Positions 3,001-57,119 of a stretch of 57,119 bases of DNA are shown piece after piece. The position numbers and the translations under genes were made by a program. Source of the DNA: Candidatus Kapaibacterium sp. (lineage in GTDB: Bacteria > Bacteroidota > Ignavibacteria > Kapaibacteriales > UBA4661); contig JALONG010000030.1 of the NCBI GenBank assembly GCA_025455065.1, forward strand, positions 1-57,119, in the 5' to 3' direction. The notes under the pieces were generated by a model that was not told the origin of the DNA, made no database searches, and saw only the letters and a list, made by a program, of their open reading frames with translations. The stretch's first letter is position 1, and each line of letters opens with the position of its first letter.

Positions 3001-6000
3001 CGGCACTCAGGCTAATGGCATTGTTCAACGTAAGGGAATTTCCTGCGCCGATATTGAAGCGCCCGTTGTTATTGATGGTAAATGTGCCGTTGATTTGGCT
3101 GCTTACGCCCGCTCCGAGCGTAATAGTCGTGGGCAGCACACCTGCATTGACAAGGACATTGCCGTTCATGGGATTGGGCAGGGCAGCGGCGGAGATCGTT
3201 CCCACCCATTCGGCATTCGCACTCAAAGTGGTGTTTGCGGCATAGTTGATTGTTCCTGCGCCGCTTACATTCCCGCCCACACCGCAGCCGCTACCTGGAC
3301 CAACGAGGCTGATTGCGCCTGCTGCTGTGCTAAGATTGAGCGTAGCTCCGGCATTCAGCACCAGTTGGCTTGTGCCACCGAGCCAGATTTCATCGGTTTG
3401 AGTGTGCGCTCCTGCGCCAAGCGTAAGCGCGTTCGTGCAGGAACTGAGGCGGCTTCCGCCCGTAAATATGCCGTTTACTTGCAAGTTCGCCGTTAAATCG
3501 GCTGTTCCGCCAAAGAGCGTTGTGAGATTGTTCACCTGCGCCGTAGCGATGTTGAGCGGTCGGAGTGTGCCGTAGGGTGCCGGCGGCGTAAAAATGTAAT
3601 TTGCGGCCAATGACCATGTTCTTGTTCCGGTATTGACAATAGCTCCGCCGTTGAAACCGTTATTGTTACTTGCTTGCAAGGTAGCGTCATTTTGCAAATC
3701 AAAATTCCCCATGCCCGTAACTTGGAAACCGCCGACATCCAAAACACCGCCCGTTGCTACTTGCAACAACACCGTATTGGCAACGGTAAAATTGCCCGTC
3801 AAAGCAGCCGTTGTCATATTTGGCACGATGAAGATGTAGTTCGCACCTGTGAAATTCGGTGCTGGCGAACCTGTGCCACCAAGTCCTGTGTACCAGTTCC
3901 CCGCAATATTCGGGTCGAAACCACCGCCGCGATAGAAAAACGTCGTTACGCCCGTACCGACAGCATAGAAGCCATTTGCAGCCGCTAGCGTCGGGAAGGT
4001 TGTGGTGTTCACAATCGTCGAACCCGCAACCGTACTGGTGTAGCCGTTGTACGTGCCTGCGGCTGCAGGCGCAACGCCCAACAAATTCACGCCATTGGTC
4101 ATTCCCGGAACGCGCTGGAATGTGAGGTCAGCATTAGTGAGCGCCATTGACGGCGTAACGCGCCAATACTCGCTTGCAGAGCCGAGACTGCCCATTAAGC
4201 CTGAAGTCAGCACTGACGGCGGAGCAGTGAAAAACGGCTCTACTTCGACCGTGCCGCCGCCTGCGGTGTAGGTGAGTGTGGCGGGATTATACGTGGCAGC
4301 CGTGCCGCCGCCCACGGGGAAGCTGTACGTACCACTTGCACCAACAAAGCGACGAAGCGGTCCCACAACATGAGATGCCGCCGAAGCACCAACAATAGCC
4401 CCCGCAGCCGAATTAGTTGTTCGGAGAATATTCGTTGGTGTTGTTTGGATAAATCCTTGGTTTAAGGTCAAAAGTCCTGCCGCCGAAATATCTAACGGAG
4501 AACCAAGCGAAAGTGTCGCTCCGGCGCGGTTCATGGAGAGTGAACCCATAATACCCGTAAACAGCGCCGAACCGGTGATATTACCCGCACCCGCAATATC
4601 CAGCGTTGCCGCAGCCGAGCCGTTGATTGTTCCACCGGAAAAGACGATTGCACCGTTTGGTTGTAATGTCCGCCCGGAAATGTCGAATGTTCCTGCCTGT
4701 ACAGTAAGTGTACCAGTAATCTGACGATTGGCATTCAGCGATACCGTGTTGGAGCCGTTTATCAACACCGACCCCTGCATCGGCGATGGGAATTCTACGT
4801 TTGTAGTCGCTCTTGCGAGGATGGTCTGATATTCCAGCGTTGCGGTTGTACCCCAATACGTTACCGCATTGCCTGTTACCGCTCCCGAACCGACAAGTTG
4901 CAACGTCGCACCTTGAATAGTATTCCCTGAGACATTCACAAAGCCGTTGTTCGTAATCGTAACACCATTACCGATCGCCAGCACTGACGGCGTGGTCACG
5001 TGCATACTCACATTTGCGCCGATGGTGATTGGTGCAATGACTGATGCCGTTGTGGTTGCGCTACCGCCCATGACGTAGAAGTCTGTCGCGGGGCTGCTGA
5101 ACGCCGTTGCAGGCGTGCCGCCGCCCCAAGGAAGCGAGTTCCAGTTTGCGGGGTTGTTTGCGTTGCCGGATTGGTAGTAGAAGACCGTCGGCGGCACTTG
5201 GTTGAGCAGAATCGAAACATCACCCGAACCGTGGTTCGCCGTTGCAATGTCCATATCACCGTCGTTGTCAAAATCGCCGGAGGTGAGGCAAAAACTGGTC
5301 GTGCCGCTTATCGGCGTTGAAAGAACGGTTCCCGTAAACCGCCCCGAAAGCGCTCCAGAGCCGGAGTTCAGCAGAGTATTGGCAGTGGTGAGATACACCG
5401 CCGCAAGGTCAAGATTGCCGTCGCCATTGATGTCTGTCAAGGTAATATCCGAACTCGGCAGAGTCGTTGTAATGACAGTAAAGTTCAACGTACCGCCGGA
5501 GCTTGTATTTTCCAGAAGGACAGCATTCGCCACACCATTCCCCCCAATCGCCAGATCAATATCACCGTCGCTGTCTAAATCACCCACCGAAAAGAATGAC
5601 CGCGTGGCTCCGGCGGTCGCAAGGGTAAACGGTGCTGTGTTGAAATTACCCTTGCCGTCATTCTGCAAGAAACCAACGGTCGTACTGCCGGTGAGCGAAT
5701 ACACAATATCAATATCGCCGTCGCTGTCAAAATCGCCTGCCGCACAAGTACCTACATTGCCCACAGCGATAGTTTGATAGGTCGTGAACGACATTCCGCC
5801 GTTATTCCGTGCCACACGCACACCATTTGCGCCGCAGGTTGCAACAACGTCCAACAATCCGTCACCGTTAAAGTCTCCCGAAGCAATGTTGTCTAAGCCA
5901 ATCAAACTCATAGCACCAACATTCGTCAAGGTTCCGGCGGGGCTGTTGCGGTAGATGTAGGCATTGTTTGTTCCCAGCGAACTCACAATAACGTCAAGAT

Positions 6001-30057: not shown

Positions 30058-30162
30058 AATACCAAAATTTTGTATCTTTGTTGTCATTGAACAAAACCGT
30101 CCAAGAAAAGAACTCCTTGAATCAACGATTTCCGTGTGTTTGCCTGTATTCTCCTTCTTGCT

Positions 30163-30789
30163 ATGAACGAACAACTTCGCCAACAACTTGCTGCCGAGTG
30201 GATGTGGAAATCCGTCGAAAGCGGCATGGAACAACTCTTGAACGAAAAAGCTGCTCTGGAACGCGCCTTAGCTGAGGCGTTACAGAATCCTGCACAGAAT
30301 CCGGTGCAGAATACTTCGGTGCAGAATATTCAAGCCCCCCCCCCGCAAATATCGCGCCAAACGCCGCTCCAAAGCGGCACTATGCCAGGCGTGGATGAAG
30401 CAACACCCACACAGAATGCTGTTCCGGCATCCGATGTCGTCTTCAAAACGGCGAAAGGGCTTCAGAACTTTCCCATAGCCGCAATGTGCTATTTCGAGGC
30501 GAAAGGAAAATGTTCGCTGCTCTTTGCCGAAGGCGAGGAAAAACCACGTGTTGTTTTTCATGCCTTGGCAGAAGTAGAGCAACGTTTGGCGGAGAGCCAT
30601 TTTGTGCGGTGTAGCCGTTTTCATCTGGTGAGTTTGGCTTACTGCAAAGGCTGGCGGCACAGCCTCAAAGAGGCGATTGCATTTATCACCTTTGGCGGAA
30701 AAGAACATGAAATCACGGTTACGCGCACCAACAAAGTGGCGTTTATTCGGCGGTGGGAGGAGTACATTCGCACAAAAGGTGCAACATGA
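30163..30789 (+). CDS. LytTR-domain transcriptional regulator with C10 tract
   Basis: The protein has 208 residues from ATG at 30163. The N-terminal ~40 residues are predicted helical (ESGMEQLLNEKAALERALAEAL). A Gln/Pro-rich linker follows with a repeated (A/V)QN motif. The C-terminal ~115 residues fit the LytTR DNA-binding domain: YFEAKGKCSLLF, LAEVEQRLAESHFVRCSRFH and ITVTRTNKVAFIRRW. LytTR proteins bind 9-bp direct repeats and usually carry a receiver domain, which is missing here. A run of ten C residues (30335-30344) encodes the Pro part of the linker. Gain or loss of one C would terminate translation at 30396-30398 or 30476-30478, before the DNA-binding domain. Confidence 0.75.
   Translation: MNEQLRQQLAAEWMWKSVESGMEQLLNEKAALERALAEALQNPAQNPVQNTSVQNIQAPPPQISRQTPLQSGTMPGVDEATPTQNAVPASDVVFKTAKGLQNFPIAAMCYFEAKGKCSLLFAEGEEKPRVVFHALAEVEQRLAESHFVRCSRFHLVSLAYCKGWRHSLKEAIAFITFGGKEHEITVTRTNKVAFIRRWEEYIRTKGAT
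30335..30344 (+). repeat. C10 homopolymer within the LytTR regulator gene
   Basis: Ten consecutive C bases lie in the linker-coding region. In-frame reading is Q-A-P-P-P-Q. The tract length is in the range known to slip in phase-variable bacterial genes. Confidence 0.85.
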
Positions 30790-30880: not shown

Positions 30881-31104
30881 TTGCTCTTGTGTGCTGAAGA
30901 GAAATGCCGTAATTTTGTCCCCGTGAACATGAACAAATAACAAACCCCGCCGCGAAGCCCGTTTGTGAACTTTCAGCAGGGTTGCTTTGGAACACGTTCT
31001 TTGGTCGAGAGCCGATGTTCAGAAGCAATATACGCAAAAGTTTGTGCAAAGGTGCAAAGCGGCACGTGTTCACGCTTTTTTGAATCCTTTTTTTAGGAGT
31101 TGAT

Positions 31105-32004
31105 ATGAATCGTTTTTCATTTGTGGAGGCTGTACAAGCATCAAGGAGGCTTGAATTCACGAGGGCTTTGTGTAGCGATTTTATGAACCATCTGTCAAGG
31201 AAAGTTTTTGCCAACGCCAAACTTTTTTGTGGCATACTCCTCATTGTTATTTCTTGCTTGCTCATCAGTTGTAGTACGGTACAGGAGATATCAAGCAGTG
31301 CTTCCCCCGTCGATAGCTTTGCAAAGATTGCTTCGGACTTACCAAAGGACGCTATTACACAAAGAGCGATGACTCAGATAGTTTATGACACCGAACTGAA
31401 GCAAGACATGGTTGAGTTTCAAAATGAATTTAGTGCAAGTGTTCGCAGTGCAAACCCTGCTGGTCTAAATACAATAGAATTACGTGAAGCATATAGGAAC
31501 AATGATATTGAAAAAGCGACAAAACTCTTAGGAATTTCAGCTAAAGATTTGAATAATTTAGAGTTAAAGTATAAACTCTTAACTAAAAAAATGCAAGAAA
31601 GGTATCCGGAAATTTCCGAATACGCAAAAAAGCAAATGGGATCAAATACAGCAAATCAACAATCAGAATGTGCTTCCTGCAACCCAGATGCTGCAATGGG
31701 TAATATAGAAAAAATAAATAGCGCGATACTTGGGTCATATATGCTGAAAACAAAAAAATTCAAGGGATTTCCTGATATTGCTTATCCAGAAAACATCAAC
31801 AACTTGTATAATCTTGCGGCTCCAGGCCCGGGAGAAGTATGTGATGCTGAACGAGTAATTCCGCTATCATTACTTTGTTGGATGAGAACGGCTGCTTGCT
31901 TGATTGGTGCGAATTTCACGCCACCACCATTTAATATAATTCTTATGTACGTGTGTTTTATAGAATGGAATATTTGTCAAATCAATGCTCTGAACTGCAA
32001 ATGA
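31105..32004 (+). CDS. Lipoprotein with C-terminal six-cysteine segment
   Basis: The protein has 299 residues. The start at 31105 has AGGAG 7 bp upstream; ATG 31183 would also work but lacks a ribosome site. A hydrophobic stretch ends in the lipobox LISC (Cys56), so the mature protein is probably lipid-anchored. The middle (about 70-240) is helical and Lys/Glu-rich with CxxC at 189-192. The last ~55 residues are hydrophobic with Cys246, 258, 265, 284, 291 and 298, then a final Lys. A long N-terminal part ending in a cysteine-rich hydrophobic tail recalls the halocin C8 precursor, where immunity and bacteriocin share one chain. The segment is AT-rich, lies next to an exporter and overlaps the next gene by ATGA. 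The function is not recognised; the bacteriocin reading is inference. Confidence 0.7.
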   Translation: MNRFSFVEAVQASRRLEFTRALCSDFMNHLSRKVFANAKLFCGILLIVISCLLISCSTVQEISSSASPVDSFAKIASDLPKDAITQRAMTQIVYDTELKQDMVEFQNEFSASVRSANPAGLNTIELREAYRNNDIEKATKLLGISAKDLNNLELKYKLLTKKMQERYPEISEYAKKQMGSNTANQQSECASCNPDAAMGNIEKINSAILGSYMLKTKKFKGFPDIAYPENINNLYNLAAPGPGEVCDAERVIPLSLLCWMRTAACLIGANFTPPPFNIILMYVCFIEWNICQINALNCK

Positions 32005-32750
32005 GAACGTTATTCCTATCATTAGATAGACTTTACCTTCGTCTGCGTTTTTCCTACTGTTTGTGCTTGATAACTTTCGCGTTTTCCGCCATTGTCCATG
32101 CTCAGACCATAACCAACGAACAAAAGGCTATGACCTCCTTTGAGAAAACTCAAAATGATATACGGCACACTCTTTTGCGGATCATCGGGGGGCGCGGCGC
32201 TGCAATGATTGTTGGTGGTACAGCACTGTACTATTTGCCCGATGGGTTGCAAATACAATCTCCACCAACGAATCTTGGAGTATTCCAGGATGTTAGTTGG
32301 GGCATAAAGATTTGGCTCAATCGCGTTGTTGTAGCATCTGATAATGGTTCTCAGTATTTTAGACTTGGAGAAACAGATGTTAATAAAATTTATCAAGGCA
32401 ACTATCTTTCAACAATTGTGGGATATTCTGCTTTTGATGAAAAATGGCTCAGAATTACACCTTTTGCGGAAGGAGGAATACGTTCAATCTCAAGTCAAGG
32501 TGGTATGATATACAATTCGCTTTCTGTTGGTGGAGGCATTGAAGTTTCACAAGCAATTCCGCTTGGCTATTATGCTACACCCAAGGTAGATGATATTGTC
32601 ACAACATGGCTTTTAACCTTGAGTTTGCGGTCCAGCTACTTAGCCGATTACTTTGTAAGAACTCAAACGTGGGATGGTGGTTTTATAAATGTTCGCTTCA
32701 ATATTGGCATTGGTTTACAATCGGATATGATCCAGATGGAATCGCCGTAG
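32001..32750 (+). CDS. Exported protein, probable beta-barrel or surface protein
   Basis: The protein has 249 residues from ATG at 32001, which overlaps the TGA of the preceding gene (ATGA), indicating translational coupling. The N-terminal hydrophobic stretch FSYCLCLITFAFSAIVHA is a signal peptide with cleavage near AHAQ. The rest alternates aromatic and small residues (WLRITPFAEGG, SVGGGIEV, FNIGIGL), as in small outer-membrane barrels. No family is recognised. The gene is AT-rich like its partner and ends before a strong terminator, so the pair forms a self-contained cassette. A role in protection from or display of the upstream cysteine-rich protein is only a guess. Confidence 0.65.
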   Translation: MRTLFLSLDRLYLRLRFSYCLCLITFAFSAIVHAQTITNEQKAMTSFEKTQNDIRHTLLRIIGGRGAAMIVGGTALYYLPDGLQIQSPPTNLGVFQDVSWGIKIWLNRVVVASDNGSQYFRLGETDVNKIYQGNYLSTIVGYSAFDEKWLRITPFAEGGIRSISSQGGMIYNSLSVGGGIEVSQAIPLGYYATPKVDDIVTTWLLTLSLRSSYLADYFVRTQTWDGGFINVRFNIGIGLQSDMIQMESP

Positions 32751-33008: not shown

Positions 33009-34553
33009 ATGGTATGCAGAAAGTCTGCCACGCTGATTTTGGGGTATTACAAACACCTTTTGCGGCTGCCGCAATCCTTCTTCGACACGCGCCGCGTCGG
33101 AGAAATCATCTCCCGCATTAACGATGCCGTCAAAATCCGCGAAGCCGTCAGTTCCGCTTCGCTGACGATAATTGTGGATGCGCTGGTGTTGCTATTCTCC
33201 TTCGCGCTGATGTTTGTCTATTCGTGGAAACTGGCATTGGTGGCGCTTGCAACGGTGCCGCTATTTTTGCTTCTCTTTTTTGCGCTCAAAGGCACAATCG
33301 GGCGCACACAGCGCGGCATGATGGAGAAAAATGCGGAATTGGAATCGCACCTCGTCGCCTCTGTAAGCGGCATTGCAACGATTAAATCCCAACAAGCCGA
33401 AGCCACAAGCAATCGCAAAACCGAACAGCAATTCGTGGAACTTCTCGGTTTGGTGCGCCGAGCAAGTTATTTGGGTTTGACGAACAGCACCGTGAGCGAG
33501 TTTATAGCAGGAGCGGCACTCTTGGCGCTGCTCTGGATTGGCGGCTGGTCGGTGGTGAATAATCACCTCAGCGTGGGTGAACTGATGTCGCTTTACACGC
33601 TCATCGGCTATGTTACCGGACCCGCATCACGCCTTGTGGGGATTCATCAAACCATTCAAGACGCACTCATTGCGGCAGACCGTTTGTTTGAAATTTTGAC
33701 ACTCGAAACCGAAGACGAGGAACACGGCAAAAACGGCGTTAATGCTGATGTGGAGGCGGCAGCAATAGAAAAAATTTCTATCGAAAACCTTTCCTTCCGC
33801 TACGGCACACGCGCCAAAGTGCTGGACGGACTGCATTTCACGATTGAACGCGGCACGATGACAGCGATTGTGGGCGAAAGCGGTTCCGGCAAAAGCACGA
33901 TTGCAAAACTCCTGCAAGGAATGTACGAACCAAGCGAAGGCACGATTGCGCTGCATACCGCAAACAACGTTTTGACGACGAACAATCTACGCTTGGAAGC
34001 GCTGCGGCGTTTGATTGGTGCTGTTCCTCAGAACGTCGAACTTTTTCATGGTACGGTGCTGGACAATATCACCCTTGGCGACGCAACTCCTGATTACACG
34101 AGGGCTATGCAACTGTGTCATTTCATCGGCGCACACGAATTTATCCAAAAACTGCCCTACCAATGGAACACCATGCTCGGCGAATTCGGCGCAGACCTCT
34201 CCGGCGGGCAGCGCCAGCGCCTCGCCATTGCCCGTGCGCTTTACCGCCAGCCGCAAGTGTTGGTGCTGGATGAAGCCACCAGCGCACTCGACAGCGAATC
34301 GGAGTTTGCCGTGCAGCAAGCACTCACGGCACTTCGCTCGCAAGGACTGACGACGCTTGTGATAGCGCACCGCCTCAGTACGGTTGTGGCGGCAGACCAA
34401 ATTTTGGTGATGGAAGAAGGGAAAATTTTGGAGCGCGGTTCGCACGAAGAACTGCTCCGGCAGGAAGGCAAATACTACACGCTCTGGATGCGGCAGGTGG
34501 CAGGCAATACACTACGACAACAAATACATCATAATTCAGAGGTAATTGCGTGA
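33009..34553 (+). CDS. ABC exporter (permease-ATPase), N-terminally truncated
   Basis: The protein has 514 residues. The opening ILGYYKHLLRLPQSFFDTRRVGEIISR corresponds to the interior of peptidase-containing peptide exporters, where about 200-250 residues (C39 peptidase and first helices) normally precede it. An in-frame TAG sits at 33000-33002, two codons before the ATG, and no upstream frame supplies the missing part. The remaining permease helices (about 50-240) and the nucleotide-binding domain are intact: GESGSGKST, LSGGQRQR, DEATSALD, AHR. GTG of the adaptor gene overlaps its stop. Full-length relatives cleave double-glycine leaders and export peptides with an HlyD partner. This copy is either a remnant or works with a partner chain. 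The break coincides with the end of the AT-rich cassette. Confidence 0.85.
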   Translation: MVCRKSATLILGYYKHLLRLPQSFFDTRRVGEIISRINDAVKIREAVSSASLTIIVDALVLLFSFALMFVYSWKLALVALATVPLFLLLFFALKGTIGRTQRGMMEKNAELESHLVASVSGIATIKSQQAEATSNRKTEQQFVELLGLVRRASYLGLTNSTVSEFIAGAALLALLWIGGWSVVNNHLSVGELMSLYTLIGYVTGPASRLVGIHQTIQDALIAADRLFEILTLETEDEEHGKNGVNADVEAAAIEKISIENLSFRYGTRAKVLDGLHFTIERGTMTAIVGESGSGKSTIAKLLQGMYEPSEGTIALHTANNVLTTNNLRLEALRRLIGAVPQNVELFHGTVLDNITLGDATPDYTRAMQLCHFIGAHEFIQKLPYQWNTMLGEFGADLSGGQRQRLAIARALYRQPQVLVLDEATSALDSESEFAVQQALTALRSQGLTTLVIAHRLSTVVAADQILVMEEGKILERGSHEELLRQEGKYYTLWMRQVAGNTLRQQIHHNSEVIA

Positions 34554-35704
34554 ACAGTTCTCATCTCATCATCGAAGCCGCCGAAGTAAACGACACGCTC
34601 GTTGTCGCGCTTGGAAAACCTTCAAGGGCGCTTCGCAGCACGTATTACACGATAGTAGCGGTATTACTCGCGGCGCTTGTCTGGGCTTATTTCAGTGTGG
34701 TGGACATTAGTGTCCACGCGCAAGGTGTGGTACGCCCTACCAGCGGTGTTCATCCGGTGCAAAGTACGATTACGGCGGTGATTCGTGAACTACGGGTGCA
34801 GGAAAATTCTCGCGTAGAAAAAGGCGATACGCTGGCAATCCTTGATGTTCCCGCTTCGGAAGAAAGGATGCACCTGCACAAGGAGCGCACAAGCCGCTTA
34901 CAACAAGAACTTGCGGACATTCGTGCGCTGGCGGAACTTTCGGCAGCACACCGATTCACTTTTCCCGTGTATGCCCGTGAACGCGATGTTGCCTTATCGG
35001 AAAAGGCATTGCGGGAAAAAGAACTTGCCGCCGCCGAAGCAAGGTTGAAGCGCACAAGCGACCTTTTTGCCAAAACCTTTGCCAGCCGCGAGGAGTACGA
35101 AAACGCACGGTTACAAGCCGAGCAAAAAGCACAAGCATTGGAACAGTGGCGACAATCGCACCGCCGAAGCGCTCTCGACCGCGAGAAACAAGTTGTTACC
35201 AGCCTTCTCGAACAGGAAAGCGCACTCAAAGAACTTACCTTGTCTCACCGAAATACCGTTTTATGCGCTCCCCAAAGCGGCATTGTTACGAATCTTTCCG
35301 TACGGGCTGCAAATGTGGTTCTTACGCCGTCGCAGAATCTCTGCACGATTGCTCCTGAAGAAGAGCAGTGCGTTGAGTTTACGATTCCGGCGCGTGATGT
35401 GGGATTTGTACGGGAGGGTTTGAAAGTACGGTATCAAATCGAAGCGCTGCCGTTTCAGGAATGGGGAACAGCGCAAGGCAACGTCCAACTTGTGGGAAAA
35501 GACCTTTTGCTTTCGGGAGACACCAAACAGCAAGCAGGCTTTAAGGTTGTCGGGACAATCGGCAATCGCTCGTTGGAGTCCAAACGGCAAGGACAACAGG
35601 CAGCAATCACGCTCGGAATGACCTGCCGCGCAAGCATTGTTGTTGCGCAAAAGCGCATGATTACCATGCTTTGGGATAAAGGCGTGAAGTACCTTGCGCT
35701 ATAA
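34550..35704 (+). CDS. HlyD-family membrane fusion protein
   Basis: The protein has 384 residues from GTG at 34550, overlapping the exporter stop (GTGA). It has one N-terminal transmembrane helix (STYYTIVAVLLAALVWAYF), a biotinyl-lipoyl half (VRPTSGVHPVQS... VEKGDTLAILD), a long coiled coil (about 100-225, rich in Glu/Lys/Ala) and the returning lipoyl and barrel segments (APQSGIVTNL). Such adaptors bridge an ABC exporter to an outer-membrane channel in type I secretion. Together with the upstream exporter it forms a peptide-export operon. No TolC-like gene or double-glycine substrate is visible nearby. Confidence 0.88.
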   Translation: MNSSHLIIEAAEVNDTLVVALGKPSRALRSTYYTIVAVLLAALVWAYFSVVDISVHAQGVVRPTSGVHPVQSTITAVIRELRVQENSRVEKGDTLAILDVPASEERMHLHKERTSRLQQELADIRALAELSAAHRFTFPVYARERDVALSEKALREKELAAAEARLKRTSDLFAKTFASREEYENARLQAEQKAQALEQWRQSHRRSALDREKQVVTSLLEQESALKELTLSHRNTVLCAPQSGIVTNLSVRAANVVLTPSQNLCTIAPEEEQCVEFTIPARDVGFVREGLKVRYQIEALPFQEWGTAQGNVQLVGKDLLLSGDTKQQAGFKVVGTIGNRSLESKRQGQQAAITLGMTCRASIVVAQKRMITMLWDKGVKYLAL

Positions 35705-56478: not shown

Positions 56479-56724
56479 TTACTCTTTTGAGTAGATGTAT
56501 TTCTTTAACACAATTTCCATTATCGGTATTATACTGAGAATACAAAGAAAAATAAGTTTTCCCGTAGAGAATATATTGGGATAAAGAAATTGAACTGTAA
56601 TCAAAAATGAAAAAAATATAACACTCATACTGGCTATAACACGCGGGGAGTTTGCATATTTTCTGGCAAAAATTAATGCTGCAAACCCCAAAACGCAGCC
56701 AATAATTAAAAAGAGTATATCCAT
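56479..56724 (-). CDS. Small three-helix membrane protein, possible immunity protein
   Basis: The protein has 81 residues from ATG at 56724, chosen because GGA and AAGG precede it and because an earlier start would overlap the upstream gene. Three hydrophobic segments (MDILFLIIGCVLGFAALIF; VIASMSVIFFSFLITVQFLY; LIFLCILSIIPIMEIVL) end in a basic tail. It starts 34 bp after the six-cysteine peptide gene on the same strand in an AT-rich patch. Small multi-helix membrane proteins encoded directly after a bacteriocin are typical immunity proteins; here this is inference from position and size only. Confidence 0.6.
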   Translation of the reverse strand: MDILFLIIGCVLGFAALIFARKYANSPRVIASMSVIFFSFLITVQFLYPNIFSTGKLIFLCILSIIPIMEIVLKKYIYSKE

Positions 56725-56758: not shown

Positions 56759-57049
56759 TTAGCGGCATATTGAGTGCGCAACACGGGTATTTGAGCAGTA
56801 GCTACAAATTGCATCGTAAGCACAAGCCCCATACAGTAAAGTACCAACCGGAAGTGACAGTGCAGATAGGTATCCTATAGTGTAGCCACAAGTCACTAAC
56901 TGTGAAAGGTAAGGTCCCCATTGGCAATTACCATACTCTTGGAGTGATGCTCCAGATTTTGCTTTTGACGCTTTATTTACAATGGTTGTGTAAGCTATTT
57001 CATCAAAGTTATCAATAAACTTTACAGTAGTTTTGACAGTTCTTTGCAA
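56759..57049 (-). CDS. Six-cysteine hydrophobic peptide, bacteriocin-like
   Basis: The protein has about 96 residues from TTG at 57049; the frame stays open to the window edge, but a terminator lies at 57064-57094, so the start must be downstream of it. The first ~40 residues are polar. The rest is a hydrophobic Gly/Leu/Tyr-rich segment with Cys42, 54, 76, 82, 85 and 95 and a final Arg. First spacing C-x11-C, six cysteines over 53 residues and one basic residue after the last Cys match the tail of the lipoprotein at 31105-32004. The look (LPVGTLLYGACAYDAICSYC) resembles halocin C8-type bacteriocins. No signal peptide or double-Gly leader is clear. The start codon is uncertain. Confidence 0.5.
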   Translation of the reverse strand: MQRTVKTTVKFIDNFDEIAYTTIVNKASKAKSGASLQEYGNCQWGPYLSQLVTCGYTIGYLSALSLPVGTLLYGACAYDAICSYCSNTRVAHSICR

Positions 57050-57063
57050 GCAAAAAAAATTTG

Positions 57064-57094
57064 AAAAAACCCGAAAGAAGCGCGAACTTTCAGG
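57064..57094 (-). terminator. Terminator of a gene beyond the right edge
   Basis: On the minus strand CCTGAAAG (57094-57087) pairs with CTTTCGGG (57077-57070, one G-T pair) and is followed by six T. It separates the six-cysteine peptide gene from an upstream transcript. Confidence 0.7.
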
Positions 57095-57119
57095 ATTCAA
57101 CCACGAACCTTTGAAAGGA

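Follow-up and report, generated by a model that had tools for sequence, protein, structure and literature searches.

A stretch of 57,119 nucleotides (the window), which is the whole of contig C84 of a Candidatus Kapaibacterium genome (G000), encodes two cysteine-rich segments. The question that it raises is whether the two belong to one protein family and, if so, what such a family might do. The sequence-only reading had proposed a shared six-cysteine signature, a new peptide family, and two modes of delivery, one fused to a lipoprotein and one free.

The two cysteine-rich segments

The intact copy comprises the following features.

31105..32004, plus strand: subtype B lipoprotein gene, 299 aa, with a lipobox at residue 56 of its signal peptide, a helical N-domain, a CxxC motif and a cysteine tail
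31669..31680, plus strand: CASC (CxxC) motif ahead of the linker
31840..32001, plus strand: C-terminal hydrophobic six-cysteine tail, 54 residues, predicted helical in a structural model

The sequence contains both cysteine patterns as given. The tail at 31840-32001, C-x11-C-x6-C-x18-C-x6-C-x6-C-K, closes the 299-aa ORF. The peptide with the pattern C-x11-C-x21-C-x5-C-x2-C-x9-C-R is encoded on the minus strand of 56759-57049, and the plus strand carries stops throughout. The similarity of the two patterns does not exceed chance. In a direct alignment, tail and peptide score lower than 1000 shuffles do on average (z -1.02, p 0.896; 896 of 1000 reach the score), and the result is the same kind when the cysteines are held fixed (z -0.95, p 0.882). 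The profile-profile alignment that had been suggested as a check, run here on the tails of the two subtypes described below (A and B), gave no support for a link between tails: the probability was 0.54%, and the score was reached by 18 of 200 free column shuffles and by 20 of 200 with the cysteine columns fixed. The first run of this comparison cut the mature start crudely at the first cysteine of the range, and a different cut gave the same result.

Because the two segments match no better than shuffles, the six-cysteine signature is not evidence for a family. The alignments pair the first cysteine of the peptide with the second of the tail, and they pair the C-x5-C-x2-C of the peptide with the last cysteines of other members; the common x11 first loop is probably not an equivalent position. 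The proposal of a single family nevertheless stands on other grounds. The two products belong to one family in the same genome, a family with a conserved cysteine-rich hydrophobic tail, and the link rests on the N-terminal domains and on third sequences. The tail of a further copy on contig C85 matches the window peptide with a z of 5.6, or 4.6 with the cysteines fixed, the best of 9 pairs.

An insertion sequence divides one of the genes

The right end of the window has three features.

56759..57022, minus strand: 3' portion of a subtype A lipoprotein gene interrupted by an insertion sequence (IS); this is the supposed free peptide
57018..57022, minus strand: 5-bp target-site duplication, AAGTT in minus-strand reading, of which contig C39 has the other copy at its IS junction
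57023..57119, unstranded: one end of the IS element, whose terminal repeat is TACAGTAGTTTTGACAGTT...; the contig stops within the IS

The first 34-35 or so residues of the peptide are encoded by a repeat that recurs at contig ends across the genome. The TACAGTAGTTTTGACAGTT repeat occurs at 15 sites in G000 at no more than 1 mismatch (57023-57119 and 14 others), with end types of 9 and 5 sites plus one other, and the element interrupts the assembly at many contig ends. In related genomes its copies have inverted ends about 1.3-1.4 kb apart, and the copy in G002 encodes a transposase that matches DDE_Tnp_1 (E 5.8e-11). The repeat is therefore an insertion sequence.

The remainder of the interrupted gene is found on contig C39. 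Its reading frame runs into the opposite IS end and is preceded there by AAGTT, and the window has AAGTT directly after the IS. Among the 5 ends of that type in the genome, C39 alone has AAGTT before the IS end. A family lipoprotein from genome G016, used as a query, matched the peptide at E 4.5e-6, the end of contig C39 at E 0.009 and the 31105 protein at E 0.009. The C39 half carries a signal peptide, a CxxC motif (CTDC) and an N-domain related to that of 31105-32004, and it matches profile A2, built without any C39 row, at E 3.6e-8. Since the IS junction, the AAGTT duplication and the G016 matches agree, C39 carries the 5' part of the gene whose tail lies in the window. The peptide is the 3' part of an IS-split lipoprotein gene. 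Taken jointly, the family membership and the split are close to certain. The LytTR regulator gene on C39 (L042:83-753) is spread over two frames, so the C39 cassette is decaying; the split cassette thus has two lesions, the regulator frames and the IS.

The idea of one peptide family with a lipoprotein-fused and a free form fits the window taken alone, where the second ORF, annotated by itself, has no lipoprotein part. A 46-codon stop-to-stop tail frame without an N-domain, found in a far relative (G107), could also be cited for it. The IS end, the matching target duplication and the N-terminal half on C39 refute a free form at this locus. The G107 frame contains no ATG, GTG or TTG codon, and the equivalent region of a second far relative (G115) is interrupted by stops and frame changes. 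Two delivery modes are therefore very improbable. The case illustrates a trap in draft genomes: a small cysteine-rich "peptide" read at the end of a contig may in fact be the 3' end of an IS-split gene.

A family of lipoproteins with two subtypes

The search for further copies yielded 13 accepted family loci, which occur in 8 of 391 genomes of the class (G000, G001, G002, G004, G016, G479, G488 and G517).

Subtype B (8 loci): window 31105; C85 of the same genome (L011); G002 C620 (L002) and C485 (L107); G004 C3 (L108); G001 C13 (L109, 5' cut), C44 (L110, 3' cut) and C256 (L111)
Subtype A (5 loci): the C39/window gene; G016 (L004); G479 (L076); G488 (L112); G517 (L113, 5' cut)

The genome of the window holds three copies: the intact gene at 31105-32004, the open C85 copy, and the gene split between C39 and the right end of the window. 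Family precursors have 226 to about 300 residues and a common architecture. A lipoprotein-type signal peptide comes first and is followed by a helical N-domain some 120-180 residues long, a linker that varies and a hydrophobic cysteine-rich tail; 11 of the 12 N-domains compared contain a CxxC motif. By their signal sequence the members are predicted lipoproteins, as 9 of the 11 copies whose N-terminus is readable show the lipobox pattern. The exceptions are the G488 copy, with an off-pattern LVKC, and the G001 copy on C44 (L110:2648-3304), with Tyr in place of the lipobox Cys.

The N-domains connect the two subtypes. An hhalign comparison of A with B gave a probability of 98.0 and an E of 1.8e-13, a score reached by 0 of 200 column shuffles, and a profile built from A members only finds B members, including the window 31105 protein (E 7.4e-10) and another at 3.8e-10. 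By these profile comparisons the N-domains of the two subtypes are homologous. Profiles A8 and A9 include a C39 row that ends in about a dozen IS-derived residues.

The tails are hydrophobic, rich in cysteine and 54-95 residues long. Those of subtype A follow C-x11-C-x10(or 21)-C-x5-C-x2-C-x8/9-C and start with Cys-[QR]-Trp-[GA]-Pro. The element C-x5-C-x2-C is present in 5 of 5 A tails and, with one more cysteine, ends 5 of 7 complete B tails; the 31105 tail and a close relative in G002 have C-x6-C-K instead. The chance of finding this element in at least 4 of 5 B clusters is 6e-5 in composition shuffles, for a motif taken from subtype A and clusters merged by hand. The A and B tails are probably homologous. 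In 7 of 7 pairs compared, which were hand-chosen and in which common cysteines raise tail identity, the tail is more conserved than the N-domain, and the tail is therefore likely to be the working end of the protein.

The suggestion that the family is new has held so far: members scanned gave no Pfam or NCBIfam match, and searches of open-licence papers found no description of a cysteine-tailed lipoprotein family. More broadly, among the lipoproteins, the three-helix proteins and the putative outer-membrane proteins that were scanned, none reached the cut-off of a Pfam or NCBIfam model.

Neighbouring genes and possible function

Three genes of the window adjoin the two copies.

30136..30789, plus strand: LytTR-type transcriptional regulator gene (Pfam LytTR PF04397), upstream of the intact lipoprotein gene
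32001..32750, plus strand: putative outer-membrane (beta-barrel-like) protein gene, whose start overlaps the lipoprotein stop
56479..56724, minus strand: gene for a small membrane protein with 3 hydrophobic segments, a candidate immunity protein, directly downstream of the split gene

A three-helix ORF of 81-86 aa lies 1-87 bp downstream of the lipoprotein gene in 5 of 5 subtype A loci. All subtype A loci thus have a small dedicated gene beside the candidate toxin gene, as in toxin-immunity pairs. The three-helix proteins are clearly similar to one another for several pairs (up to z 9.1), and the window copy is weakly similar (best z 2.6). No three-helix gene was recognised at the 7 subtype B loci with readable downstream DNA.

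The two far relatives G107 and G115 provide a further arrangement.

L126:2581-3115 (minus strand); L127:3883-4125 and 5037-5363: two distinct small three-helix ORFs in G107 and G115, next to what is left of a decayed tail

The tail-like stretch is a remnant in both genomes, as described above, and the three-helix ORF that adjoins it is intact in both (dN 0.112, dS 0.568). The second three-helix ORF gives a dN of 0.087 and a dS of 0.526, and dN/dS is about 0.2. An intact three-helix gene beside a decayed tail looks like the orphan-immunity pattern of known toxin systems. Purifying selection alone is no proof of immunity, since any useful membrane protein should show a dN/dS below 1.

Gene order, the conserved cysteines and the orphan partners lead us to infer that the family may consist of bacteriocin-like effectors anchored as lipoproteins and paired, in subtype A, with a cognate immunity protein. 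The probability of this reading is roughly 0.4, and it is offered as tentative. The lipoprotein would be lipidated and reside in the outer membrane. There the disulfide-bonded tail would either stay on display or be released by a cut at the linker, and its target would be the membrane of competing cells. In subtype A, protection of the producer would fall to the three-helix membrane protein whose gene lies just downstream, and in the genus of the window LytTR regulators may switch the locus on. The mechanism of subtype B is less certain because it has a putative outer-membrane protein gene instead of the small membrane gene. Several findings count against a bacteriocin-like role: subtype B is without the three-helix partner, the three-helix copy of the window is weakly similar to the others, profile comparison does not join the A and B tails, the lipoboxes of G488 and of G001 C44 are off pattern, LytTR linkage is confined to the genus, and Foldseek recovered no known toxin fold. 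If the reading is true, the lineage gains a compact lipoprotein weapon and genes that may confer immunity to it (none was recognised there in the literature searched), in the form of gene pairs of a few hundred codons that are directly testable.

The neighbour of subtype B lends itself to another explanation. A putative outer-membrane protein gene follows the lipoprotein gene in 7 of 7 assessable subtype B copies, with an extra ORF of about 110 aa in between in two of the seven. These downstream ORFs encode proteins of 200-265 aa with a signal peptide, of which three were aligned; the product of 32001..32750 is 53% and 25% identical to the neighbours of two other copies (G002 and C85). The constant company of this gene and the start/stop overlap in the window are consistent with an envelope module rather than a weapon, in which the lipoprotein would join its neighbour, the outer-membrane protein in B or the small membrane protein in A, in a structural or sensing complex, the tail would be a disulfide-locked membrane anchor, and LytTR would control genes of envelope stress or adhesion. 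The presence of several copies per genome (three in G001) and a tail that is conserved and not diversified also fit such a module. The patchy occurrence of the accepted members in the class argues against it, as do the different membrane partners of A and B, and the broken copies, with the C39 regulator in two frames and the IS split, suggest a dispensable function. An envelope role is possible and stands close behind the bacteriocin-like one. A broader version of the latter is possible but not probable: a new class of antibacterial effectors, consisting of outer-membrane lipoproteins with a disulfide-rich membrane-active tail that would be LytTR-controlled in one genus, with immunity from the three-helix protein in subtype A and from the outer-membrane protein in subtype B, and with orphan immunity genes in distant relatives.

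The product of 30136..30789 matches LytTR PF04397 at E 1.8e-05 (25.3 bits, cut-off 22.6, scanned from 30172), and regulators of this type occur at 3 loci in the same genome (C84, C39 and C85) at E <= 0.001. A LytTR gene lies directly upstream of 8 of 8 assessable family copies in the genus of the window, and the linkage is seen inside the genus only. One of these regulators (L108) is a receiver-LytTR response regulator. Certain quorum-sensing systems of Gram-positive bacteria use a peptide signal that feeds a LytTR-type regulator. By analogy, the tail, whole or in part, could be released as a signalling peptide that feeds the adjacent regulator, and the constant gene order within the genus speaks for such a signal precursor. 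No histidine kinase was recognised beside the loci in the ORF lists read, however, and a hydrophobic multi-cysteine tail of this size is large for a pheromone. Beyond the genus, two subtype A loci have readable upstream DNA, and no LytTR-like ORF was recognised among the ORFs read there. Signalling is accordingly an improbable role for the tail.

The region 30940-31080, which precedes the lipoprotein gene, is found again ahead of the C39 copy (L042) and in a G002 locus (L002). It was noticed through similar antisense translations and may represent a shared promoter or a repeat.

The CxxC motif, together with the tail cysteines, could also serve a redox or metal-binding lipoprotein that binds a metal or heme or exchanges disulfides. 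The frequency of CxxC among the N-domains agrees with this, and in a PDB sequence search an engineered cytochrome c555 trimer matched the B profile at E 2.6e-5. This match was set aside, because no member has CxxCH, the mark of c-type heme; in the members read, the residue after the N-domain CxxC is N, D, K, Q or V and never H, unlike in c-type cytochromes. The E of a single-domain cytochrome against the B profile is 0.3, no thioredoxin or cytochrome Pfam match was above cut-off, and the best PDB match of the A profile has an E of 0.1. Redox or metal chemistry is the least probable of these three alternative functions.

An ABC exporter ORF near the intact copy, proposed earlier as a possible exporter of the products, was rejected in this role. 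ORF 33009-34553 is cut at its 5' end: its match to an HlyB-type model begins only at position 218 of 694, and that to the ABC membrane domain at 73 of 274. Because it is truncated and the family members carry lipoprotein-type signal peptides, it is not an obvious exporter. Pfam and NCBIfam scans gave no match to the C39 domain of C39-type ABC transporters in the ABC ORF by the B copy. An HlyD-like ORF (34550-35704) follows, and immediately upstream of the truncated end is the LytTR-lipoprotein cassette.

Comparison with known systems

Halocin C8 and fulvocin C are cysteine-rich hydrophobic bacteriocins with a multi-cysteine C-terminal peptide of about 45-75 residues. The family resembles them in its hydrophobic multi-cysteine C-terminal part, and no NCBIfam or Pfam match to bacteriocin families of this type was found in the scans. 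Bacteriocins with a double-glycine leader and C39-type ABC export are different, as the precursors here are long and have lipoprotein-type signals and no short GG leader. The SdpC toxin is a 42-residue disulfide peptide, and its precursor is not known to be a lipoprotein. No SdpC-type match appeared at E <= 1 or <= 5 in an NCBIfam release that may lack an SdpC model.

SdpC/SdpI of Bacillus subtilis is described as a larger precursor with a hydrophobic cysteine-containing toxin part and a separate membrane-associated self-protection gene in the locus, an organization to which that of the family is similar (PMC13343845). As given in the same account, and unlike anything noted for the family, SdpC maturation requires SdpA and SdpB (PMC13343845). 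The Bacteroidales secreted antimicrobial proteins (BSAPs) are presented as surface-exposed lipoproteins that kill and have a distinct C-terminal domain, and they are thus comparable in being lipoproteins with a distinct C-terminal part (PMC12853789). The BSAPs described there all have MACPF (PF01823) (PMC12853789). Pfam scans of 9 members of the present family, whole or part, found none.

A further parallel is Fab1/RFab1 of Bacteroides fragilis, in which the immunity ORF lies immediately after the gene of a processed protoxin and also occurs as orphan copies (PMC8406203). Fab1 is activated by fragipain, the cysteine protease Fpn, and RFab1 is a documented case of orphan immunity, present in strains that lack the toxin (PMC8406203). 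The family shares with this pair, by description and not by sequence, a candidate immunity ORF directly downstream, orphan-like copies and the lack of recognised domains, and differs in that the passages describing Fab1 mention no cysteine-rich tail or LytTR gene (PMC8406203).

Structure and genome searches

AlphaFold models of two family members are helical, with mean pLDDT of 69.6 and 69.2. Foldseek found nothing at E <= 0.001 and no known toxin fold for either model, and VIA-align gave no Z of 5 or more for either. These negatives say little because the models are helical and of moderate confidence. PADLOC returned one weak match (KwaA, E 0.02) in the signal-peptide region, and PHROGs one weak match to the G488 three-helix protein (E 0.0076).

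The accepted loci were collected from several searches. One at E <= 0.1 matched 10 of 61 genomes, of which the window's own, G002 and G016 were kept. The peptide query matched 12 of 61, mostly through its IS part; G016 was kept, G042, G014 and G025 were left unread, and the L021 match in G024 had no matching ORF at the locus. Profile A2 matched 3 of 395 genomes, and the G212 and G147 loci were read and rejected. A list of four matching loci consisted of G016 itself and three short matches, of which L072 was read and rejected and L071 and L073 were left unread. In a search that matched 5 of 123 genomes, G428 was read and rejected and G053 left unread. The class search at E <= 0.05 matched 80 of 391 genomes, with 8 accepted and the remaining 72 mostly marginal and unread; the ORFs of G015, G009, G462 and G590, among those 72, were read and rejected. 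A search that matched 5 of 395 genomes led to G107 and G115, kept as remnants, and to G039 and G135, read and rejected. The A-only profile matched 9 of 391 genomes, with G039 rejected and G445 unread. A weak C58 match in the window's own genome (G016 query, E 0.25) was left out.

The rejected G147 locus contains a 271-aa lipoprotein-like ORF (L067:946-1761, minus strand) with an Ala/Gly-rich hydrophobic tail that has four cysteines. Its layout is similar to that of the family, its profile match is weak and confined to the N-terminal region (E 0.01), and it is possibly an analogous tailed lipoprotein.
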